45,662 bases of DNA, from IMG/VR virus record IMGVR_UViG_3300045932_000167, positions 1 to 45,662 of that record. The stretch is one strand, 5' to 3'. The notes beneath the pieces were generated by a model. It was not told where the DNA came from. It saw nothing but the letters and a program-made list of their open reading frames with translations, and did no database searches. Below are positions 2,609 through 10,240 of the stretch, piece by piece (the first letter of the stretch is position 1; each line of letters opens with the position of its first letter). The position numbers were made by a program, and so were the translations under genes. The stretch is from a virus.

Positions 2609-2705
2609 CGGCGCGGCCCCGCCGGGCGAGGGGCTCAGACCCGGCAGGTTGTCTGGGGACGCCTCACCGCGCCGCCGTGCGCTCTTTAATCTCGGGATCT
2701 CGAAA

Positions 2706-4661
2706 ATGGAACTCGTCCAGAGGACGACGGCTGCTGCCGCGCCTGGCGGCGACCCGCTCGAGTTCGTCATGTCGGACGCGACGGTCGATAGATTCGGCGA
2801 CATCATCGAACCCGACGGCTGGCAGCTCGCGAACTTCCGCAAGAACCCGATCGCGCTGTTCGGCCACGACGGCGACTTTCTGGTCGGCAACTGGCACAAC
2901 GTCAGGATCGAGGACGGCGCGCTGATCGGTCGCCTCGACTTGCTGCCGCCCGTCTCGGAGCGGCTGCGGGAGATCCACACCGCCATCGATGCCGGCGTCC
3001 TGCGCGCCGTCTCGGTCGGCTTCCGCCCGATCAAGCGCGAGCCCATCGAGGGCAGCAAGGTCGGCGGCATCCGCTTCCTCGAAACCGAACTTGTCGAATG
3101 CTCGCTCGTCTCAGTGCCGGCGAACCCGAACGCGCTGCAGGTGGCGAGAAGTCTGAATTTGTCCCGCGATACCATGGCTCTGATCTTTGGCGAGTCCGCC
3201 CTTGATGGTCAGGAACCGGGTCGTGGGCGTCCTGGCGAGCCTGCCGGAACCTCCCTGACCAGAAGGTCACCCCCGATGAATATCTCGGAGCGTATCGAGC
3301 GGGCTCAGGCCACGCTCACCGAACTCAAGGACAAGCTTAACAACCACATCACCTCGCAGGGCGAAGTGATCGACGAGGCGGCGACTTTGGTCGCGGCCGA
3401 ACTTAGCGGGCAGATTAAGCAGACCGAGGGCACGCTGGTGATGCTGAAAGACGCGGAAGCGTCGCTCGGCGCCAAGAGCGATCCCCTGGTCACCACCCCC
3501 GGCACGAACGTCGTTACCACCACCGGCAACAACACCCGCCGGCCGTTCTCGCTGCCGCAGAAAAAGGTCGAGCCGGTCGACTACATCTACCGCTCGGTGG
3601 CGGCGGCGGTCGTCGCCCACATGACCCATCGGCCGATCCCCGAGGTCTTGCGCGCCGCCTACGGCGACGACGAGATCACCCACCGGGTCGCCGACATTCT
3701 GGTGATGCGGGCCGCGACGGTGCCGGCGTCCACCACCCAGGTCGGCTGGGCCGCCGAGCTGGTGCAGACCGCGATCCTCGACCTCATCGACACGCTGCCG
3801 GTGATGTCGGTCTACCCGCGGCTGCGCGCGCTCGGCGGGCGCTACACCTTCGGGCGCAACGGCATCGTCTCCCTGCCGGCGCGCAGCGCGACCCCGACCG
3901 TCGCCGGGTCGTTCATCGCCGAAGGTGCTCCCATCCCGGTGCGGCAGGCTGCGTTCACCGCAGTCACGCTGACCCCGAAGAAGATGGGCGTCATCACCAC
4001 GATGACCCGGCAGATCGCGATGCACTCGACGCCGGCCATCGAACAGGTGCTGCGCGAGGCGATGGCCGACGACACCGCCATCTCGCTCGACACGATCCTG
4101 CTCGACAACGTGGCGGGGACTGCGGTGCGGCCACCGGGCCTGCGGTACAACGTGACCCCGGTCACGCCGACCGCCGGCGGCGGGTTTGCGGCGCTGGTCG
4201 GCGACCTGAGCAAGCTCGTCGAGGTGCTGTCGGACGCCAACTCGATGCGCTCGCCCGCCTGGATCATGCACCCCAGCGATGTGGTGCGGATCGGGCTGAC
4301 TCAGGGCACCGCCGGCACCGACTTCCCGTTCCGCGCCGAGGTCAATGCCGGGAACCTGCTGGGCTACCCGGTCATCCAGTCCACGACCCAGACCAAGAAG
4401 TCGGTGATCCTGCTCGACGCCGCCGACTTCTTCTCGGCGACCGGCGACGAGCCGATGTTCGACGTGTCGGATCAGGCGACGATCCACATGGAGGACACCA
4501 CCCCGCTGCCGATCGGCTCGACGGGCACCCCCAACACCGTGGCGGCGCCGGTTCGCTCGCTGTGGCAGACGGACAGCCTCGGCATCCGCATGCTGCTCGA
4601 TGTCAACTGGGCGATGCGGCGCACGGGCGTCGTGACTTACGTCACGGGCGTGACTTGGTAA
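2706..4661 (+). CDS. Prohead protease - major capsid protein fusion
   Basis: One open frame joins two normally separate HK97 genes. Counting from the ATG at 2706, about residues 1-150 are an S78/U35-type prohead protease: FGHDGD supplies the histidine, AVSVGF the serine and ETELVECSLVSVPAN the acidic region. After a linker, residues from about 191 on are an HK97-fold capsid protein with a helical delta (scaffold) segment (ISERIERAQATLTELKDKL) and the capsid core ending VTYVTGVTW. The frame stays open upstream to a TTG at 2649, but the 2706 ATG begins where protease homology begins. Proteases normally process the scaffold, so cleavage of the fusion in assembling heads is expected. An internal start at 3276 could also give free capsid protein. 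Confidence 0.9.
   Translation: MELVQRTTAAAAPGGDPLEFVMSDATVDRFGDIIEPDGWQLANFRKNPIALFGHDGDFLVGNWHNVRIEDGALIGRLDLLPPVSERLREIHTAIDAGVLRAVSVGFRPIKREPIEGSKVGGIRFLETELVECSLVSVPANPNALQVARSLNLSRDTMALIFGESALDGQEPGRGRPGEPAGTSLTRRSPPMNISERIERAQATLTELKDKLNNHITSQGEVIDEAATLVAAELSGQIKQTEGTLVMLKDAEASLGAKSDPLVTTPGTNVVTTTGNNTRRPFSLPQKKVEPVDYIYRSVAAAVVAHMTHRPIPEVLRAAYGDDEITHRVADILVMRAATVPASTTQVGWAAELVQTAILDLIDTLPVMSVYPRLRALGGRYTFGRNGIVSLPARSATPTVAGSFIAEGAPIPVRQAAFTAVTLTPKKMGVITTMTRQIAMHSTPAIEQVLREAMADDTAISLDTILLDNVAGTAVRPPGLRYNVTPVTPTAGGGFAALVGDLSKLVEVLSDANSMRSPAWIMHPSDVVRIGLTQGTAGTDFPFRAEVNAGNLLGYPVIQSTTQTKKSVILLDAADFFSATGDEPMFDVSDQATIHMEDTTPLPIGSTGTPNTVAAPVRSLWQTDSLGIRMLLDVNWAMRRTGVVTYVTGVTW
3261..3278 (+). 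promoter_or_regulatory. Internal ribosome binding site and start inside the fusion gene
   Basis: AGAAGG at 3261-3266 stands 9 bases before an in-frame ATG at 3276-3278. This start falls at the domain border, exactly where the scaffold-plus-capsid part begins (MNISERIERAQ). It would yield a 461-residue capsid protein without protease, allowing a low fusion-to-capsid ratio. Use of this start is inferred, not shown. Confidence 0.5.
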
Positions 4662-4783
4662 GCAGACGATCAGATGGCGGGCGGTCTGAACCGCCCGTCG
4701 TCGTGCTGCTTGTGGTGGCAGGCCTGGCGCTATGCGTGATCGGCCTCGCCGCCATCCCGATCCTCTTCGCGGTGCCGCAATGA
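4655..4783 (+). CDS. Small single-pass membrane protein
   Basis: A 42-residue frame from TTG at 4655 ends in a TGA that overlaps the next gene's ATG by 4 bases. After a short basic start (SRRSDGGRSEPP) it is almost entirely hydrophobic (VVVLLVVAGLALCVIGLAAI), enough for one membrane helix. The start codon is uncertain and the ribosome site weak; the coupling to the next gene is the best argument that it is real. No function is recognised. Confidence 0.4.
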   Translation: MVSRRSDGGRSEPPVVVLLVVAGLALCVIGLAAIPILFAVPQ

Positions 4784-4983
4784 CCGAGCCGCTGCTGCAG
4801 TTCTTCGCCTACCACCACCTGCCGATTCAACTCCAGGCGATCAGCATGCCGTTCGGCGAACTGGCCGACCACATCGTCGCGACGCTGCCGCGCAACCCCG
4901 AGCGGACGACCGCGCTGCGCAAGCTCCTCGAGTCCAAGGACTGCGCGGTCCGGGCGGCGCTGTTCAAGGAGCCGGCATCATGA
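4780..4983 (+). CDS. Acb2/Tad1 hairpin-like protein (candidate anti-CBASS)
   Basis: This 67-residue protein has the signature of the small phage family now called the Acb2/Tad1 hairpin domain: YHHLP near the start, PFGELADHIV, LPRNPERTTALRKLLE, then a SKDCAVRAAL helix. Family members form helical hairpins. The studied Acb2 proteins bind and sequester cyclic oligonucleotides made by CBASS and related defence systems. Many relatives lie in structural gene clusters, as here between capsid and portal, and have never been tested. Family membership is inferred from motif memory without a search; the sequestering activity of this member is unknown. It overlaps its neighbours by 4 bases on each side. 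Confidence 0.65.
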   Translation: MTEPLLQFFAYHHLPIQLQAISMPFGELADHIVATLPRNPERTTALRKLLESKDCAVRAALFKEPAS

Positions 4984-5282
4984 GCACCATCGAAGAGATG
5001 CGTGCCGCCTGGGACAAGCAGACCAAGGAACCCTTGGTGCCGATGCCGCCCGGCGCTGCGGTGCCTGGATCCGCGCTCGAGTACCGCATCGCCAAGCTGC
5101 GGCTGGAGCCCGGCGATGTCCTCATCGTCAAGGTGGATCAGCACCTAACCCTGGAGATGACGATCGGCGCGGCCCAAGCGATGAAGGACATCGTTGGCCA
5201 GGATGTGCCGGTCATGGTGATCGACCGAGACATCGACGTGTCGCTGCTGACCAAGGCCGAGATCGCGGAGCGAACAGTATGA
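4980..5282 (+). CDS. Hypothetical protein, late region
   Basis: This 100-residue protein is not recognised. Its C-terminal two thirds look like a compact alpha/beta fold: LRLEPGDVLIVKV, a helix over AAQAMKDIVG, then VPVMVIDRDIDVSLL. The first 30 residues are charged and proline-rich. It overlaps the Acb2-like gene upstream and the next small gene downstream by 4 bases each, so it belongs to one translationally coupled run between capsid and glycosyltransferase. No membrane segment or cysteine motif is present. Confidence 0.75.
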   Translation: MSTIEEMRAAWDKQTKEPLVPMPPGAAVPGSALEYRIAKLRLEPGDVLIVKVDQHLTLEMTIGAAQAMKDIVGQDVPVMVIDRDIDVSLLTKAEIAERTV

Positions 5283-5494
5283 GCGATCCATGGGCCTCCG
5301 GGGTGATGCGTTTCGAGGTAGCGCAGGCTGACCCGTTCGAACGGTTGCCAGCACTGGCGGCGAGGCTGGGGGTGAAGCCTTACGAGGCTGAGGATCGAGG
5401 TCAGGCCGAGGTGCTGCTGCACACCAAGAACGGCGAGCGCTACAGCCTGTTCGACCTGATCAACGCGTTTCTCGACCGGTTGGATAAGGCATGA
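5279..5494 (+). CDS. Hypothetical protein, late region
   Basis: This 71-residue protein is not recognised. It reads as a soluble small protein with FEVAQADPFERLPALAARLG followed by a helical YSLFDLINAFLDRLDKA tail. Both ends overlap neighbouring genes by 4 bases, which is the main evidence that it is expressed. Confidence 0.7.
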   Translation: MSDPWASGVMRFEVAQADPFERLPALAARLGVKPYEAEDRGQAEVLLHTKNGERYSLFDLINAFLDRLDKA

Positions 5495-5715
5495 TGGACG
5501 TGCCGCTGATCTGCGACCCGGTGCCGGGACCATCGGGGATCATCACGACTTCCCGGCGATTATCAGCGGCTGACGTAGAGCGGTTTCGCAAACGCTGGGC
5601 ACTCGTATCGAAGGGCTTCGCAAGTCCGAGCGAAATACTGCCTGCGGCGTATCGGTTCCAACCGTTGACCGCCGGCCGCACCGAATGGCCCGACGCCGAG
5701 TATTGCGCGGCCTGA
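5491..5715 (+). CDS. Hypothetical protein, late region
   Basis: This 74-residue protein is not recognised. The middle (LSAADVERFRKRWALVSKGF) is a likely amphipathic helix. The start ATGATG overlaps the previous stop by 4 bases, and the gene ends 3 bases before the glycosyltransferase-like gene. The first or the second ATG could be used. Confidence 0.65.
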   Translation: MMDVPLICDPVPGPSGIITTSRRLSAADVERFRKRWALVSKGFASPSEILPAAYRFQPLTAGRTEWPDAEYCAA

Positions 5716-5718
5716 CCG

Positions 5719-7035
5719 ATGCGCCTCCTCGTCCTCTATCACGCCGGGTACAGCTACACGCCGACGATCCGGCATTACCTCGAGGCCTTCGGGCGGTACT
5801 CGACCTGCGAGGTCGCGTATTCGAACGTCGACCAGCCCGAATGCATCGATCTTGCATATTTCGACGCGGTTTTGGTCAATTTCTGCGTCACCTCGATGGT
5901 GCGCTTCCCCGAGCGCCTGCCCGAGTTCTTCCCGCCCTTGGCGGCGGCGCTGGCCGGGTTCAAGGGCGTCAAGCTGGCCGCGGTGCAGGACGACTACGAC
6001 TTCACCAACCGGGTGATCGAGTTCCTGGCCCAGATCGGTGCCGACATCGTGCTGACCCCGGTGCCGGCCGAAGGGATTCCGGTCGTCTATCGCGAGCTCG
6101 CGAACCGGATGCACTTCGAGACGGTGCGCACCGCCTATCTCGTCCCCGGCCTGATCGAGCGCGGTCATTCGCTGCCGCCACTGGCCGAGCGGCCGATCAG
6201 CCTCGGGTATCGCGGTCGCGAACTGCCCTACCGGCTGGGTGATCTCGCCTGGCACAAGGCCGAGGTCGGGCGGCAGTTCAAATGGGCCTGCTCCCGCCGG
6301 CATGTCGCCTGCGACATCGCGATCGATGAGGGAAGCCGGTTTCTGGGCGACGCCTGGCTCGATTTCGTCGCCCGCTGCCGGGTCATGCTGGGCAGCCCCA
6401 GCGGGGCCAACGTCTTCGACTTCGACGGCTCGCTGCACAAGCGCCTCGTCGCGCTCTACCGGCCGGGCCTGCGCTACGGCGAGGTGCGCGACGAGATCCT
6501 CGCTCACGCGGTCCCGTTCGACATGGGGCAGGTCTCGGCCCGGATCTACGAGGCGGTGGCGTTCGGCACCGCGCTGGCGCTGGTGCGCGGCAATTACTCC
6601 GGGGTGCTCGAACCCGACGAGCACTATGTCCCGATCGAACCCGACTACAGCAATGTCGATCAGGTGCTGGAGCGCATCCTCGACATCCCGGCCATGGAAG
6701 CGATGGCCGAGCGTGCGCTGACCCATGTCACGGGCGATCTGCGCAACCACTACAGCGATTTCGTCGGCCGCATCGACGACCTGATCCTGGCGCGGTGCCA
6801 CCTCGGCGGTGGGGTCGCCCACGGGCAGGGGCCTCGGCCCGCAGTCACCGATCACCTGCTCGGCACCGATCCGTACCTGATCCGACAGCTGTTTGAGACC
6901 CGGCGCGCGCTGGCGGAATCCGAGGCGAACCGACGGGAGTTCCTGCAGCTCGCCGCCGAGAGGAGGCTCGAGGTCGTCCGAACCGGCGAGCGAACCTATC
7001 AGGTGCTGCACCGCGCCGAGGCGCGTTCGCCTTGA
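5719..7035 (+). CDS. Glycosyltransferase-like protein
   Basis: This 438-residue protein begins with a Rossmann-like strand (MRLLVLYHAGYSYTP) and has a second nucleotide-sugar half. The segment from about residue 265 to 340 (SARIYEAVAFGTALALV, then a YVPIEPDYSNVDQVLERI stretch) matches the C-terminal domain of GT-B glycosyltransferases of the CgeB/YkvP type. Residues after about 365 are charged and helical and may be a phage-specific tail. It sits in the middle of the head genes, upstream of portal and the collagen-like protein. Modification of a virion protein or of host surface sugar is therefore possible, but the substrate cannot be read from sequence. Confidence 0.7.
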   Translation: MRLLVLYHAGYSYTPTIRHYLEAFGRYSTCEVAYSNVDQPECIDLAYFDAVLVNFCVTSMVRFPERLPEFFPPLAAALAGFKGVKLAAVQDDYDFTNRVIEFLAQIGADIVLTPVPAEGIPVVYRELANRMHFETVRTAYLVPGLIERGHSLPPLAERPISLGYRGRELPYRLGDLAWHKAEVGRQFKWACSRRHVACDIAIDEGSRFLGDAWLDFVARCRVMLGSPSGANVFDFDGSLHKRLVALYRPGLRYGEVRDEILAHAVPFDMGQVSARIYEAVAFGTALALVRGNYSGVLEPDEHYVPIEPDYSNVDQVLERILDIPAMEAMAERALTHVTGDLRNHYSDFVGRIDDLILARCHLGGGVAHGQGPRPAVTDHLLGTDPYLIRQLFETRRALAESEANRREFLQLAAERRLEVVRTGERTYQVLHRAEARSP

Positions 7036-7455: not shown

Positions 7456-8889
7456 ATGCTGGGCCTTCCCGCAGTTCGGCGCGTCTTGGATGCATTCGCG
7501 CAGCCCTTCCGCGCGCCCGTCGCCAGATCGGACGTGCCGGCAACCACGCCGGCACCGCCCGCTGGCTATATCCTGCCGTTGGGCGGCGGATACATTCCGG
7601 CGAGCTGGCCGGTCAATTTCTGGCAGATGGGCTATGACCCGCTGTCCCACGATGCGTCGTCGGTCGTCTACGGCTGCATCGCCGCCTACGCGCAGACCGT
7701 CGCGATGTGCCCTCCCGCGCATTGGCGCTCGACCGGCGACGGCGGTCGCGAGATGGTCACCACCTCGGCGCTGTCGCGGATCCTGCGCAAGCCGAATTTC
7801 TATCAGTCGCCATCGGACTTCTTCCTCTACCTGACCGACTGTCTCTACCGGCAGGGCGAGGCCTTCGGCCTGGCGCTGCGCAACGAGCGGTTCGAGATCA
7901 ACCAGATCCACCTGATGAACCCGCGGCTCTGTTTTGCGCGGGTCGCGGTCACCGGGGATCTTTTCTACACGCTGGGCGGCAACGAGATCGTCGAGCGGAT
8001 GTTCGAGGGCGAACGCTACCTCCTCGACGCCGTGCCGGCCCGCGATGTCCTGCACGTCCGCCTGCCCGATCCCCGCAACCCGCTGAAGGGCTGCCCACCG
8101 CTCGAGGCCTCGCTGATCGAGCGTGCCGCCTCGGAGGCGATGGTGCAGCAGGCGCTCGCCTACGCCAACAATCAGGGTCGCCCGTCGGGGGTGCTGTCGA
8201 CCGAGGCGGATCTCAACGAGGAGCAGGTCACGTTTCTGCGGATGCTCTGGGACAAGCAGACCAAGGGTGTCAACCAGGGCGGCACGCCGATCCTGACCAA
8301 CGGCCTCAAGTGGGAGTCGGCGGTCATGAACTCGCGCGACGCCCAGATCGCCGAGTTTTTGAAGTTGTCGGATGCGCGCATCGCCACCGCCTATCGGGTG
8401 CCGCAGGCACTTCTCAGCCTAGAGCCGCAGGGGCCGCAAACCTCGACCGAGGCCCTGATGCAGTACTGGGTCGCCACCGGTCTGGGGTTTGCCGCCAACC
8501 ATATCGAGGAAGCGTTCGGGCTGCTGTTCGGCCTCGCCGGCCAGCCGATCGAATACATGGAAATGGATTTCGAGGCGCTGCTCCGAGCCAACTTCCGAGA
8601 TCGCATGGAAGGTCTCGCCCGCGCGGTGCAGGGCGGCATCTTTGCTCCCAACGAAGCCCGCGCCCGCGAAGAGCTGCCGAAGAAGCCCTACGGCGACGAA
8701 CCCCGCGTGCAGCAACAGGTCGTGCCGCTGAGCGCCTGGGCGCAAACGCCGCCCGCCACCCCCGCCCCGGATGCGCCCCCGTCCTCACCGCCAGCCGGAG
8801 ATGAACCGAATGTCGACGGCAGCACCCAGGAGCAATTCGATTGGGTCCGGGCCATCAACGATGCCGCCGATCGATATCGGGCCGCGTGA
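7456..8889 (+). CDS. Portal protein (HK97 family)
   Basis: This 477-residue protein forms the ring at the head vertex through which DNA passes. Typical portal features are the N-terminal [15 protein letters not shown] segment, the wing region, LERI-type helices around residues 215-260 ([20 protein letters not shown]), and the diagnostic [20 protein letters not shown] at about 315-335 followed by [20 protein letters not shown]. The C-terminus is proline-rich and disordered. In most HK97-like phages portal lies between terminase and protease; here it follows capsid and six small or accessory genes. The 3' end overlaps the collagen-like gene. Confidence 0.93.
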
Positions 8890-10240
8890 GGTCTTCGCCG
8901 ACGCGCTGGGTCGGGTGCTGGAGCAGGTCAGGCAGGAGTTCCGGGTAGACCGGCAACTGATGCAGGCCGAGTACGGTCGCACCGTCGCCGAGCTCCGCGC
9001 CGAAGTTTCCGAGCTGAAACTGAAGCTCAACGAGATCATGGCCGAGCGGCTGGCGCAGCTGCATGACGGCAAGGACGGCGAGCCGGGGCCGCAAGGTGAT
9101 CCAGGCCCGCAAGGTGAAAAAGGCGAGCCGGGCGCGGCCGGCGACCAAGGGGTTCCGGGTGAGCGCGGTGAGCCGGGCGAGCAGGGGCCTCCCGGCGAGA
9201 AGGGTGAGCCGGGCGAGCGCGGCGAGGCTGGAGAGCGCGGTGAACCGGGCGAGGCTATCAGAGGTGCACCGGGCGAGACGGGCGATCCTGGGCCTCCAGG
9301 CGCCGCCGGAGAGCGCGGTGAACCGGGCGCCCCGGGTGAACGCGGCGAGCCAGGATCTCCGGGTGAGCGCGGTGAGCCTGGCGAGCAGGGGCCGCAAGGG
9401 GTTGCGGGCGAGCGCGGCGAGCGCGGCGAGCCGGGCGCACCGGGTGAGCCGGGGTCTCCGGGCGAGCGCGGTGAGCCGGGCCAGGAGGGGCCGTCGGGGC
9501 CACCGGGTGAGAAAGGTGATCCAGGGGATCCGGGCGAGCGCGGTGAGCGCGGGGAGCCGGGTGACCGCGGCGAGCCGGGCGAGAAAGGTGATCCGGGCCA
9601 GGAGGGCATGCAAGGCCAACCGGGGGAGCCGGGGCCTCCGGGCGAGCGCGGCGAGCCGGGGATACCGGGAGAACGCGGCGAGGCGGGGGTCGCTGGGGAA
9701 CGCGGCGATCCCGGCCCAGCGGGCGAGCGCGGCGAGGCCGGGCCTCCCGGCAAGCTGGCCGGCGTCAAGCCCTGGGCGCGCGGTGTTCACTACGAGAGCG
9801 ATGTCGTGACGCATCTCGGCTCGACCTGGTGCGCGCTGCGCGACACCGGAGAGGAACCGCCACACGGCGACTGGCTCCTCGTCGCCGAGCGCGGCCAGGA
9901 CGCTCCCGTGGGCGAGGTCAGAGGCAGCTATGACCCGACAGCGAAATACCGGCGGTTCGACATCGTCGCCTACAACGGCTCCGAGTGGCGGGCAAAGGTC
10001 GATGACCCCGGACAACTCCCCGGAGACGGGTGGGCGTTATCTGCACAGAAAGGCGACCGCGGCCGACGCGGCGAACCCGGCGAGCAAGGCCCGCCAGGAC
10101 CGCAAGGGAAGGCGGGGGCGACGATCAGCGAGTGGCTGACCGAAGGCTACCGCGCCATCCCGGTGCTGAGCGACGGCACGCTGGGGCCGGCTCTCAATCT
10201 GCGCGAGTTCTTTGAGGCCTACCATGGCGAGGCGCGCTGA
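8810..10240 (+). CDS. Collagen-like fibre protein with carbohydrate-binding-like modules
   Basis: From the ATG at 8810 this is 476 residues. Residues 1-85 are helical ([12 protein letters not shown]...[18 protein letters not shown]), a likely trimeric coiled coil. About 225 residues of nearly perfect Gly-X-Y repeats follow ([19 protein letters not shown] and on), then two copies of a W/Y-GDxV-x-GSxW module resembling CBM5/12 chitin-type binding folds ([19 protein letters not shown] and [15 protein letters not shown]). A second short collagen block and a globular end close the protein. It is probably a trimeric virion fibre. GGAG stands 9 bases before the chosen ATG; ATGs at 8771, 8801 and 8858 are alternatives. 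It overlaps portal by 80 bases. Confidence 0.82.
9066..9750 (+). repeat. Collagen-coding Gly-X-Y repeat tract
   Basis: About 680 bases made of 9- and 18-base coding repeats for Gly-Glu-Arg-Gly-Glu-Pro-type units (GAGCGCGGTGAGCCGGGC and close variants). Such direct repeats favour slippage and length change between isolates. The antisense strand stays open as a by-product of the repeat. Confidence 0.9.

Follow-up and report, generated by a model that had tools for sequence, protein, structure and literature searches.

The gene at positions 4780 to 4983 (plus strand) of the window, by which we mean the whole 45,662-nucleotide stretch of IMG/VR virus record IMGVR_UViG_3300045932_000167 that was analyzed, encodes a 67-residue hairpin protein of the phrog_1761/phrog_5120 family. 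Profile comparisons and AlphaFold2 modeling identified this protein as a remote relative of Pfam family PF24729 (Acb2_Tad1_hairpin). Because the pocket residue, loop length, and helix-3 signature differ, the family forms a subfamily of its own within the Acb2/Tad1 hairpin superfamily and is not to be filed as Acb2 or Tad1. The best single reading of its function is that of an accessory sponge that would soak up a nucleotide-derived immune signal, to which we give a probability of about 0.5.

The gene and its family

The open reading frame (ORF) started with ATG at 4780 and ended with TGA at 4981 to 4983, and its product was 67 residues long (MTEPLLQFFAYHHLPIQLQAISMPFGELADHIVATLPRNPERTTALRKLLESKDCAVRAALFKEPAS), confirming the coordinates and length proposed in a sequence-only reading of the window. 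An alternative start at 4732, which would yield 83 residues, was disfavored; the start used by the family and an ATGA overlap with the upstream ORF both pointed to 4780. The upstream ORF (4655 to 4783, plus strand) is a putative one of 42 residues that begins with TTG, contains one strong hydrophobic helix, and contributes its stop to the ATGA overlap. The 4780 to 4983 ORF is a real gene and not a chance ORF, since relatives with near-invariant positions were present at 59 IMG/VR loci and in 323 of 50,697 phage records. Additional members were found in 24 plasmids and in 210 stretches of bacterial DNA from genomes that span many phyla. In sequenced phages, the family was about as common as PaP2-type Acb2 (323 versus 229 records).

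The protein matched phrog_1761 (E value of 1.4e-27) and phrog_5120 (E value of 1.6e-20) over its whole length, and both profiles were matched by all 32 family members compared. The phrog_1761 profile was longer than the protein, and the match covered positions 78 to 140 of 148. These two groups are the direct family of the protein, a large and uncharacterized family with no assigned function, which hundreds of phages carry as a "hypothetical protein." Our literature search found no paper that named PF24729 or phrog_1761. Some members carried additional parts as fusions or extensions. For example, p62 of Ochrobactrum phage vB_OspP_OH (L236, 765 to 1133) carried the family domain behind an N-terminal zinc-ribbon-like part, which was annotated as anti-TRAP and had weak Pfam matches. 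One contig (L048) contained two ORFs, near positions 2435 and 6001, that matched the family hidden Markov model (HMM).

Two regions of the protein were strongly conserved. The loop encoded by codons Y11 to P15 (4810 to 4824, plus strand) belonged to the family string F-x-[YFW]-x-H-L-P, in which position 11 was aromatic in 92% of members, position 12 could be any residue, and position 13 was His in 97%; His13, Leu14, and Pro15 were marks of the family. The string "YHxLP," which had been put forward as part of an Acb2/Tad1 pattern, was thus an accident of one sequence. The other region lay in helix 3 (codons E41 to R58; 4900 to 4953, plus strand), which carried the signature E..(x5)..RKL[LV]E[AS]KD[CA].VR. 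Residues E41, R47, K48, L49, E51, and D54 were nearly invariant, and K53 and R58 were almost always present. The members in the wide alignment were selected with the regular expression RKL.E.KD, so part of the helix-3 invariance in that alignment came from the selection. Whole-protein tblastn matches, for which no motif served as a filter, independently kept RKLLEA[KQ]D, including those in Dickeya phage JA13 and Mycobacterium phages BirdsNest and Bane1.

Remote homology to the Acb2/Tad1 hairpin

In searches with PF24729, which has a curated cutoff of 27 bits, neither the protein nor any of the 32 members gave a match, and searches of Pfam, PADLOC, NCBIfam, and PDB sequences with the protein yielded nothing above cutoff. 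The relationship was detected at the level of profiles. Specifically, 22 of the 32 members matched phrog_1454 at E values of 0.1 or below (best, 1.8e-4). This is the family of stand-alone YHxP hairpins, and PF24729 matched 24 of 24 of those hairpins. Reciprocally, 4 of the 24 PF24729 hairpins matched phrog_1761 (best E value, 2.4e-4). The PF24729 hairpins were fetched with a consensus that served as a probe only, and every row in the alignment came from the loci.

An hhalign comparison of the 32-row family alignment with the PF24729 hairpins gave a probability of 32 and an E value of 4.9e-4. With 129 nonredundant members, the probability was 82%, the E value was 1.1e-5, and the score was 30.5 over 54 columns; as controls for this score, the best of 60 column shuffles scored 17.3, and reversing the alignment gave 9.7. 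From a set of about 42,500 ORFs, of which half were reversed, the family HMM recovered 62 of 80 PF24729 hairpins at E values of 10 or below, and the false matches were two reversed and two unrelated ORFs. In two whole genomes, the best place for PF24729 was the 67-residue family gene itself: Brevibacterium phage AGM16 (E value of 8.4e-4) and Vibrio phage martha (E value of 3.5e-3), both at 13 to 15 bits and hence below the 27-bit cutoff.

These profile results indicated that the protein is very probably homologous, at a remote level, to the Acb2/Tad1 hairpin superfamily, which is wider than PF24729. Although each step is sound, the link to the tested sponges is a chain that runs from the 67-residue family to the YHxP hairpins and from these to the sponges. 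In the case of T4 Vs.4, the match to the PF24729 hairpin profile had a probability of 88 and an E value of 3e-6 and was ungapped, with Y8 aligned to Y11 and K23 aligned to R26. The membership claimed in the sequence-only reading therefore stood at the remote superfamily level, where the reciprocal profiles supported it, but no family model called the protein Acb2 or Tad1. The strings quoted as the hairpin signature did not stand; PF24729 hairpins read Y-H-x-P ... R-E-K-S-L-A-x-T-K-L-E-E-A-V-M-W-A-N-A instead.

Predicted fold and the altered pocket

AlphaFold2 modeled the 67-residue protein with a pLDDT of 94 and placed helices at residues 4 to 9, 16 to 35, and 40 to 61, which is the layout of Acb2. 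The expected hairpin fold, with two long antiparallel helices in the register of the PF24729 hairpins, was thus borne out by prediction. A PF24729 hairpin was modeled likewise, with helices at residues 2 to 8, 19 to 39, and 44 to 67, and these positions were consistent with a loop that is four residues longer in the PF24729 hairpin.

Against the viral models in BFVD, places 1 to 6 for the 67-residue model were its own family and near kin, and ranks 7, 9, 12 to 16, 18, and 21 were largely named Acb2/Tad1 hairpin proteins, which made up most of the named rows. Foldseek and VIA searches of the PDB with the same model returned nothing but generic helical bundles, with neither Acb2 nor Tad1 in the lists. 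When the PF24729 hairpin model was compared to the PDB with Foldseek, Tad1 (7uav) came first with a weak E value of 1.6. The same model aligned with Vs.4-cGAMP (7uq2) over 56 residues at an rmsd of 2.8 and a Z score of 6.0, which is middling for helical proteins. The alpha-hairpin is a frequent arrangement among proteins, and a homologue can take on a different function. An Acb2-like annotation based on fold only would exaggerate CBASS specificity.

Y11 and K26 belong to the dinucleotide pocket of Acb2, in which K26 is a key basic residue. The place of K26, which is R26 in the PF24729 hairpins, was occupied by Ser22 in 96% of the 67-residue family (codon at 4843 to 4845, plus strand, in the window). 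The Y...K/R pair was therefore not kept; an aromatic residue and Ser22 took its place, together with a 4-residue deletion.

An optional cassette between the capsid and portal genes

The left border of the region is a gene for a protease-major capsid protein (MCP) fusion (phrog_617; 2649 to 4661, plus strand), and the right border is a portal protein gene (phrog_12; 7456 to 8889, plus strand). The gene does lie between capsid and portal, as had been stated, but five more ORFs, one of them glycosyltransferase-like, separate it from the portal gene. The ORFs downstream, all on the plus strand, include a 100-residue ORF (4980 to 5282) that overlaps the stop of the 67-residue gene via ATGA and a 71-residue ORF (5279 to 5494) that again overlaps via ATGA, both without an assigned function and both within the inserted cassette. 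The start of a 74-residue ORF (5491 to 5715) is joined by overlap to the preceding gene, and this ORF has a homologue in one MCP relative (L286). A 438-residue ORF (5719 to 7035) in the same cassette gave a weak glycosyltransferase match (E value of 0.014, below cutoff) and was missing from relatives of the MCP-portal block.

Farther downstream, a 489-residue ORF (8771 to 10240) overlaps the end of the portal gene and contains long collagen repeats (PF01391; E value of 4e-46) as well as a weak carbohydrate-binding module match. Two tandem tail tube genes (PF18906; 12369 to 13520 and 13584 to 14735) encode 383 residues each, and their products are 78% identical.

We compared 80 IMG/VR loci that carry a related MCP gene; 66 of them had a related portal gene downstream. 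Only two of these 66 loci, on contigs identical to the window, carried the 67-residue gene; the other 64 were without it. The MCP-portal distance in relatives was mostly about 260 to 1,240 bases, compared to 2,798 in the window, and in two relatives (L313 and L315) this gap was filled by different inserts, each about 3.5 kb long. A search for relatives based on the portal gene returned six loci only. Because 64 relatives lack the gene and other inserts occupy the gap, we concluded that the gene belongs to an optional cassette and that its site, between the MCP and portal genes, is variable. Both of the other inserts contained spike- or decoration-like ORFs, and the one in L315 also contained an HNH-like ORF.

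The family as a whole had no fixed neighborhood, since the 88 large genes tallied near IMG/VR members included genes for terminase, portal, and head proteins along with genes for primase, helicase, and recombinase. Head-cluster positions were seen in Gordonia phages (between MCP and adaptor genes), in Vibrio phages (beside the portal or MCP gene; the MCP gene in 1.012), and in an Acinetobacter siphovirus (before the MCP gene). Early or nonstructural regions contained the gene in phages 133, OH, Pben1, and Phayonce, and other settings were after or beside holin genes, among minor tail genes, in T4-like phages, and on plasmids. The idea of a "structural-cluster branch" of the family did not survive this comparison; the gene is an optional insertion whose relatives occupy early, lysis, tail, and plasmid settings.

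Expression of the gene together with the capsid gene is likely. Scans near the gene found no consensus promoter or terminator, and a perfect 13-bp RNA hairpin without a T-tract (4673 to 4702, plus strand; z score of -3.38) was located directly 3' of the MCP stop. Late synthesis had been raised as an objection to a shield against an early signal. For staphylococcal Thoeris, the system for which we cite it here, PMC11312562 (see also PMC10419184) describes a major head protein that itself triggers the TIR sensors, and the discussion in PMC11312562 mentions mutations in the capsid by which phages escape immunity from CBASS and Pycsar. Because a capsid protein can be the trigger, a protein made at the same time as the capsid could still act as a shield and would not be late, and the objection falls. 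Carriage of the protein in the virion, which had been offered as a way around it, was unsupported.

A locus shared with Acb2 in T4-like Acinetobacter phages

In T4-like Acinetobacter phages, a variable stretch lies behind topoisomerase gene 60+39, towards rnlB. In phage Ac42 (NC_014660, 8087 to 8311), this stretch contains Ac42p014, a genuine Acb2 that scores 68 bits against PF24729 and has the N terminus of PaP2 Acb2 (MDNQHKKIKGYRDLSQ). Phage ZZ1 (HQ698922, 8371 to 8604) carries a member of the 67-residue family between the same two genes, and the block in W16 is identical to that in ZZ1. In phage 133 (HM114315, 3078 to 3272), a family member is located just after 60+39 and adjoins homologues of the genes that flank Acb2 in Ac42. 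Acj9 has kept these flanking genes and has neither Acb2 nor the 67-residue family, and Acj61 also has neither. In this comparison of six genomes, in which the place relative to the shared flanking gene differs, the sharing of the 60+39 interval by Acb2 and the 67-residue family may be a hint of like function, and the interval is possibly a counter-defense island. No single record among the matches listed contained both Acb2 and the 67-residue family; the chance expectation was below two, so this result carries no weight.

Proposed function and alternative explanations

We propose that the gene is an accessory counter-defense gene (a moron) whose product would fold as a short N-terminal helix followed by two antiparallel helices and would probably oligomerize as Acb2 and Tad1 do. 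The protein may then sequester a host nucleotide-derived alarm molecule, and with that molecule soaked up, the abortive-infection effector would stay off. The Acb2 dinucleotide pocket is probably not where the ligand binds; the candidate site is on helix 3 and includes the nearly invariant E41, R47, K48, K53, D54, and R58. A sequence that varies so little among phages of many phyla would favor a universal small-molecule ligand over a variable host protein. CBASS as the specific target, which ranks below the general sponge reading, is doubtful. We put forward only tentatively that the family is a third large branch of the superfamily, which would sequester a different immune nucleotide via the invariant helix-3 site.

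The alternative that deserves the most attention keeps the superfamily and the fold but changes the function: as a regulator, adaptor, or inhibitor, the hairpin might bind a protein of the host or the phage, or a different metabolite. The loss of K/R26, the loop shortened by four residues, and the invariant signature that helix 3 has of its own would all fit such a change, as would the fused or extended members such as the zinc-ribbon-like protein in the Ochrobactrum phage. Extreme constancy across phages whose hosts come from many phyla would be unusual, however, if the targets were variable host proteins, and the tested superfamily members, Acb2 and Tad1, are sponges (PMC12043709). We consider a changed function possible, at odds well below even.

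A role in particle assembly, as a minor protein of the head or neck or as one carried in the virion, would explain the position between the MCP and portal genes and the recurring head-cluster positions in the Gordonia phages, Vibrio phage 1.012, and the Acinetobacter siphovirus. This role is improbable, because the gene was missing from the 64 relatives in which the MCP and portal genes were arranged in the same way and because members occurred at early or nonstructural sites (133, OH, Pben1, and Phayonce), beside holin genes, among tail genes, and on plasmids. Even less probable is that the likeness to Acb2 and Tad1 arose by coincidence, as can happen among small helical proteins, with LxxLLxxKDxxVRxxL forming a single HEAT-like helix. 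Two of the 32 members gave a weak HEAT_2 match (best E value of 0.0048), and Foldseek returned only generic helical bundles from the PDB, but the reciprocal profiles withstood the shuffled, reversed, and ORF-set controls, Acb2/Tad1 hairpins were enriched in an ordered way in BFVD, and the predicted helix from 40 to 61 was unbroken through the LxxLLxxKDxxVRxxL string. A HEAT repeat was rejected for the protein itself, which forms that single unbroken helix and had no HEAT_2 match; the matches in the other members were below the curated cutoff.

The sponge reading thus remains the one that we prefer. The tie to the sponge superfamily gives a family of unknown function a specific biochemical prediction, and its altered pocket could reveal a ligand or defense pathway beyond those of Acb2 and Tad1.

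Comparison with known systems

One close comparison is with the PF24729/phrog_1454 hairpins (YHxP...SREKSLALTKLEEAVMWANAAIARNE), which resemble the 67-residue family in length, helix layout, and aromatic loop. In one register, [LF]A-x-x-I and Pro-x-x-x-E-x-[ST]-x-A-x-x-K-L-x-E were common to both. In contrast, the loop after the aromatic residue was shorter by four residues in the 67-residue family, and the family had KD[CA]xVR where the PF24729 hairpins had VMWANA.

The predicted protomer had the same makeup as that of Acb2 (PaP2/PaMx33, T4 Vs.4, and Ac42p014), namely a short helix and two long ones that run antiparallel. When sequences were compared directly, the protein gave no significant match to PaP2 Acb2, and its match to T4 Vs.4 was weak, although in register (probability of 7; E value of 0.005). 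For Tad1 (7UAV), the resemblance was to the C-terminal two-helix hairpin, which is from the same Pfam family and is linked to the 67-residue protein via the YHxP hairpins. Tad1 has an N-terminal beta-sheet domain ahead of this hairpin (PMC12043709), whereas the AlphaFold2 model of the 67-residue protein was all-helical and had no such domain.
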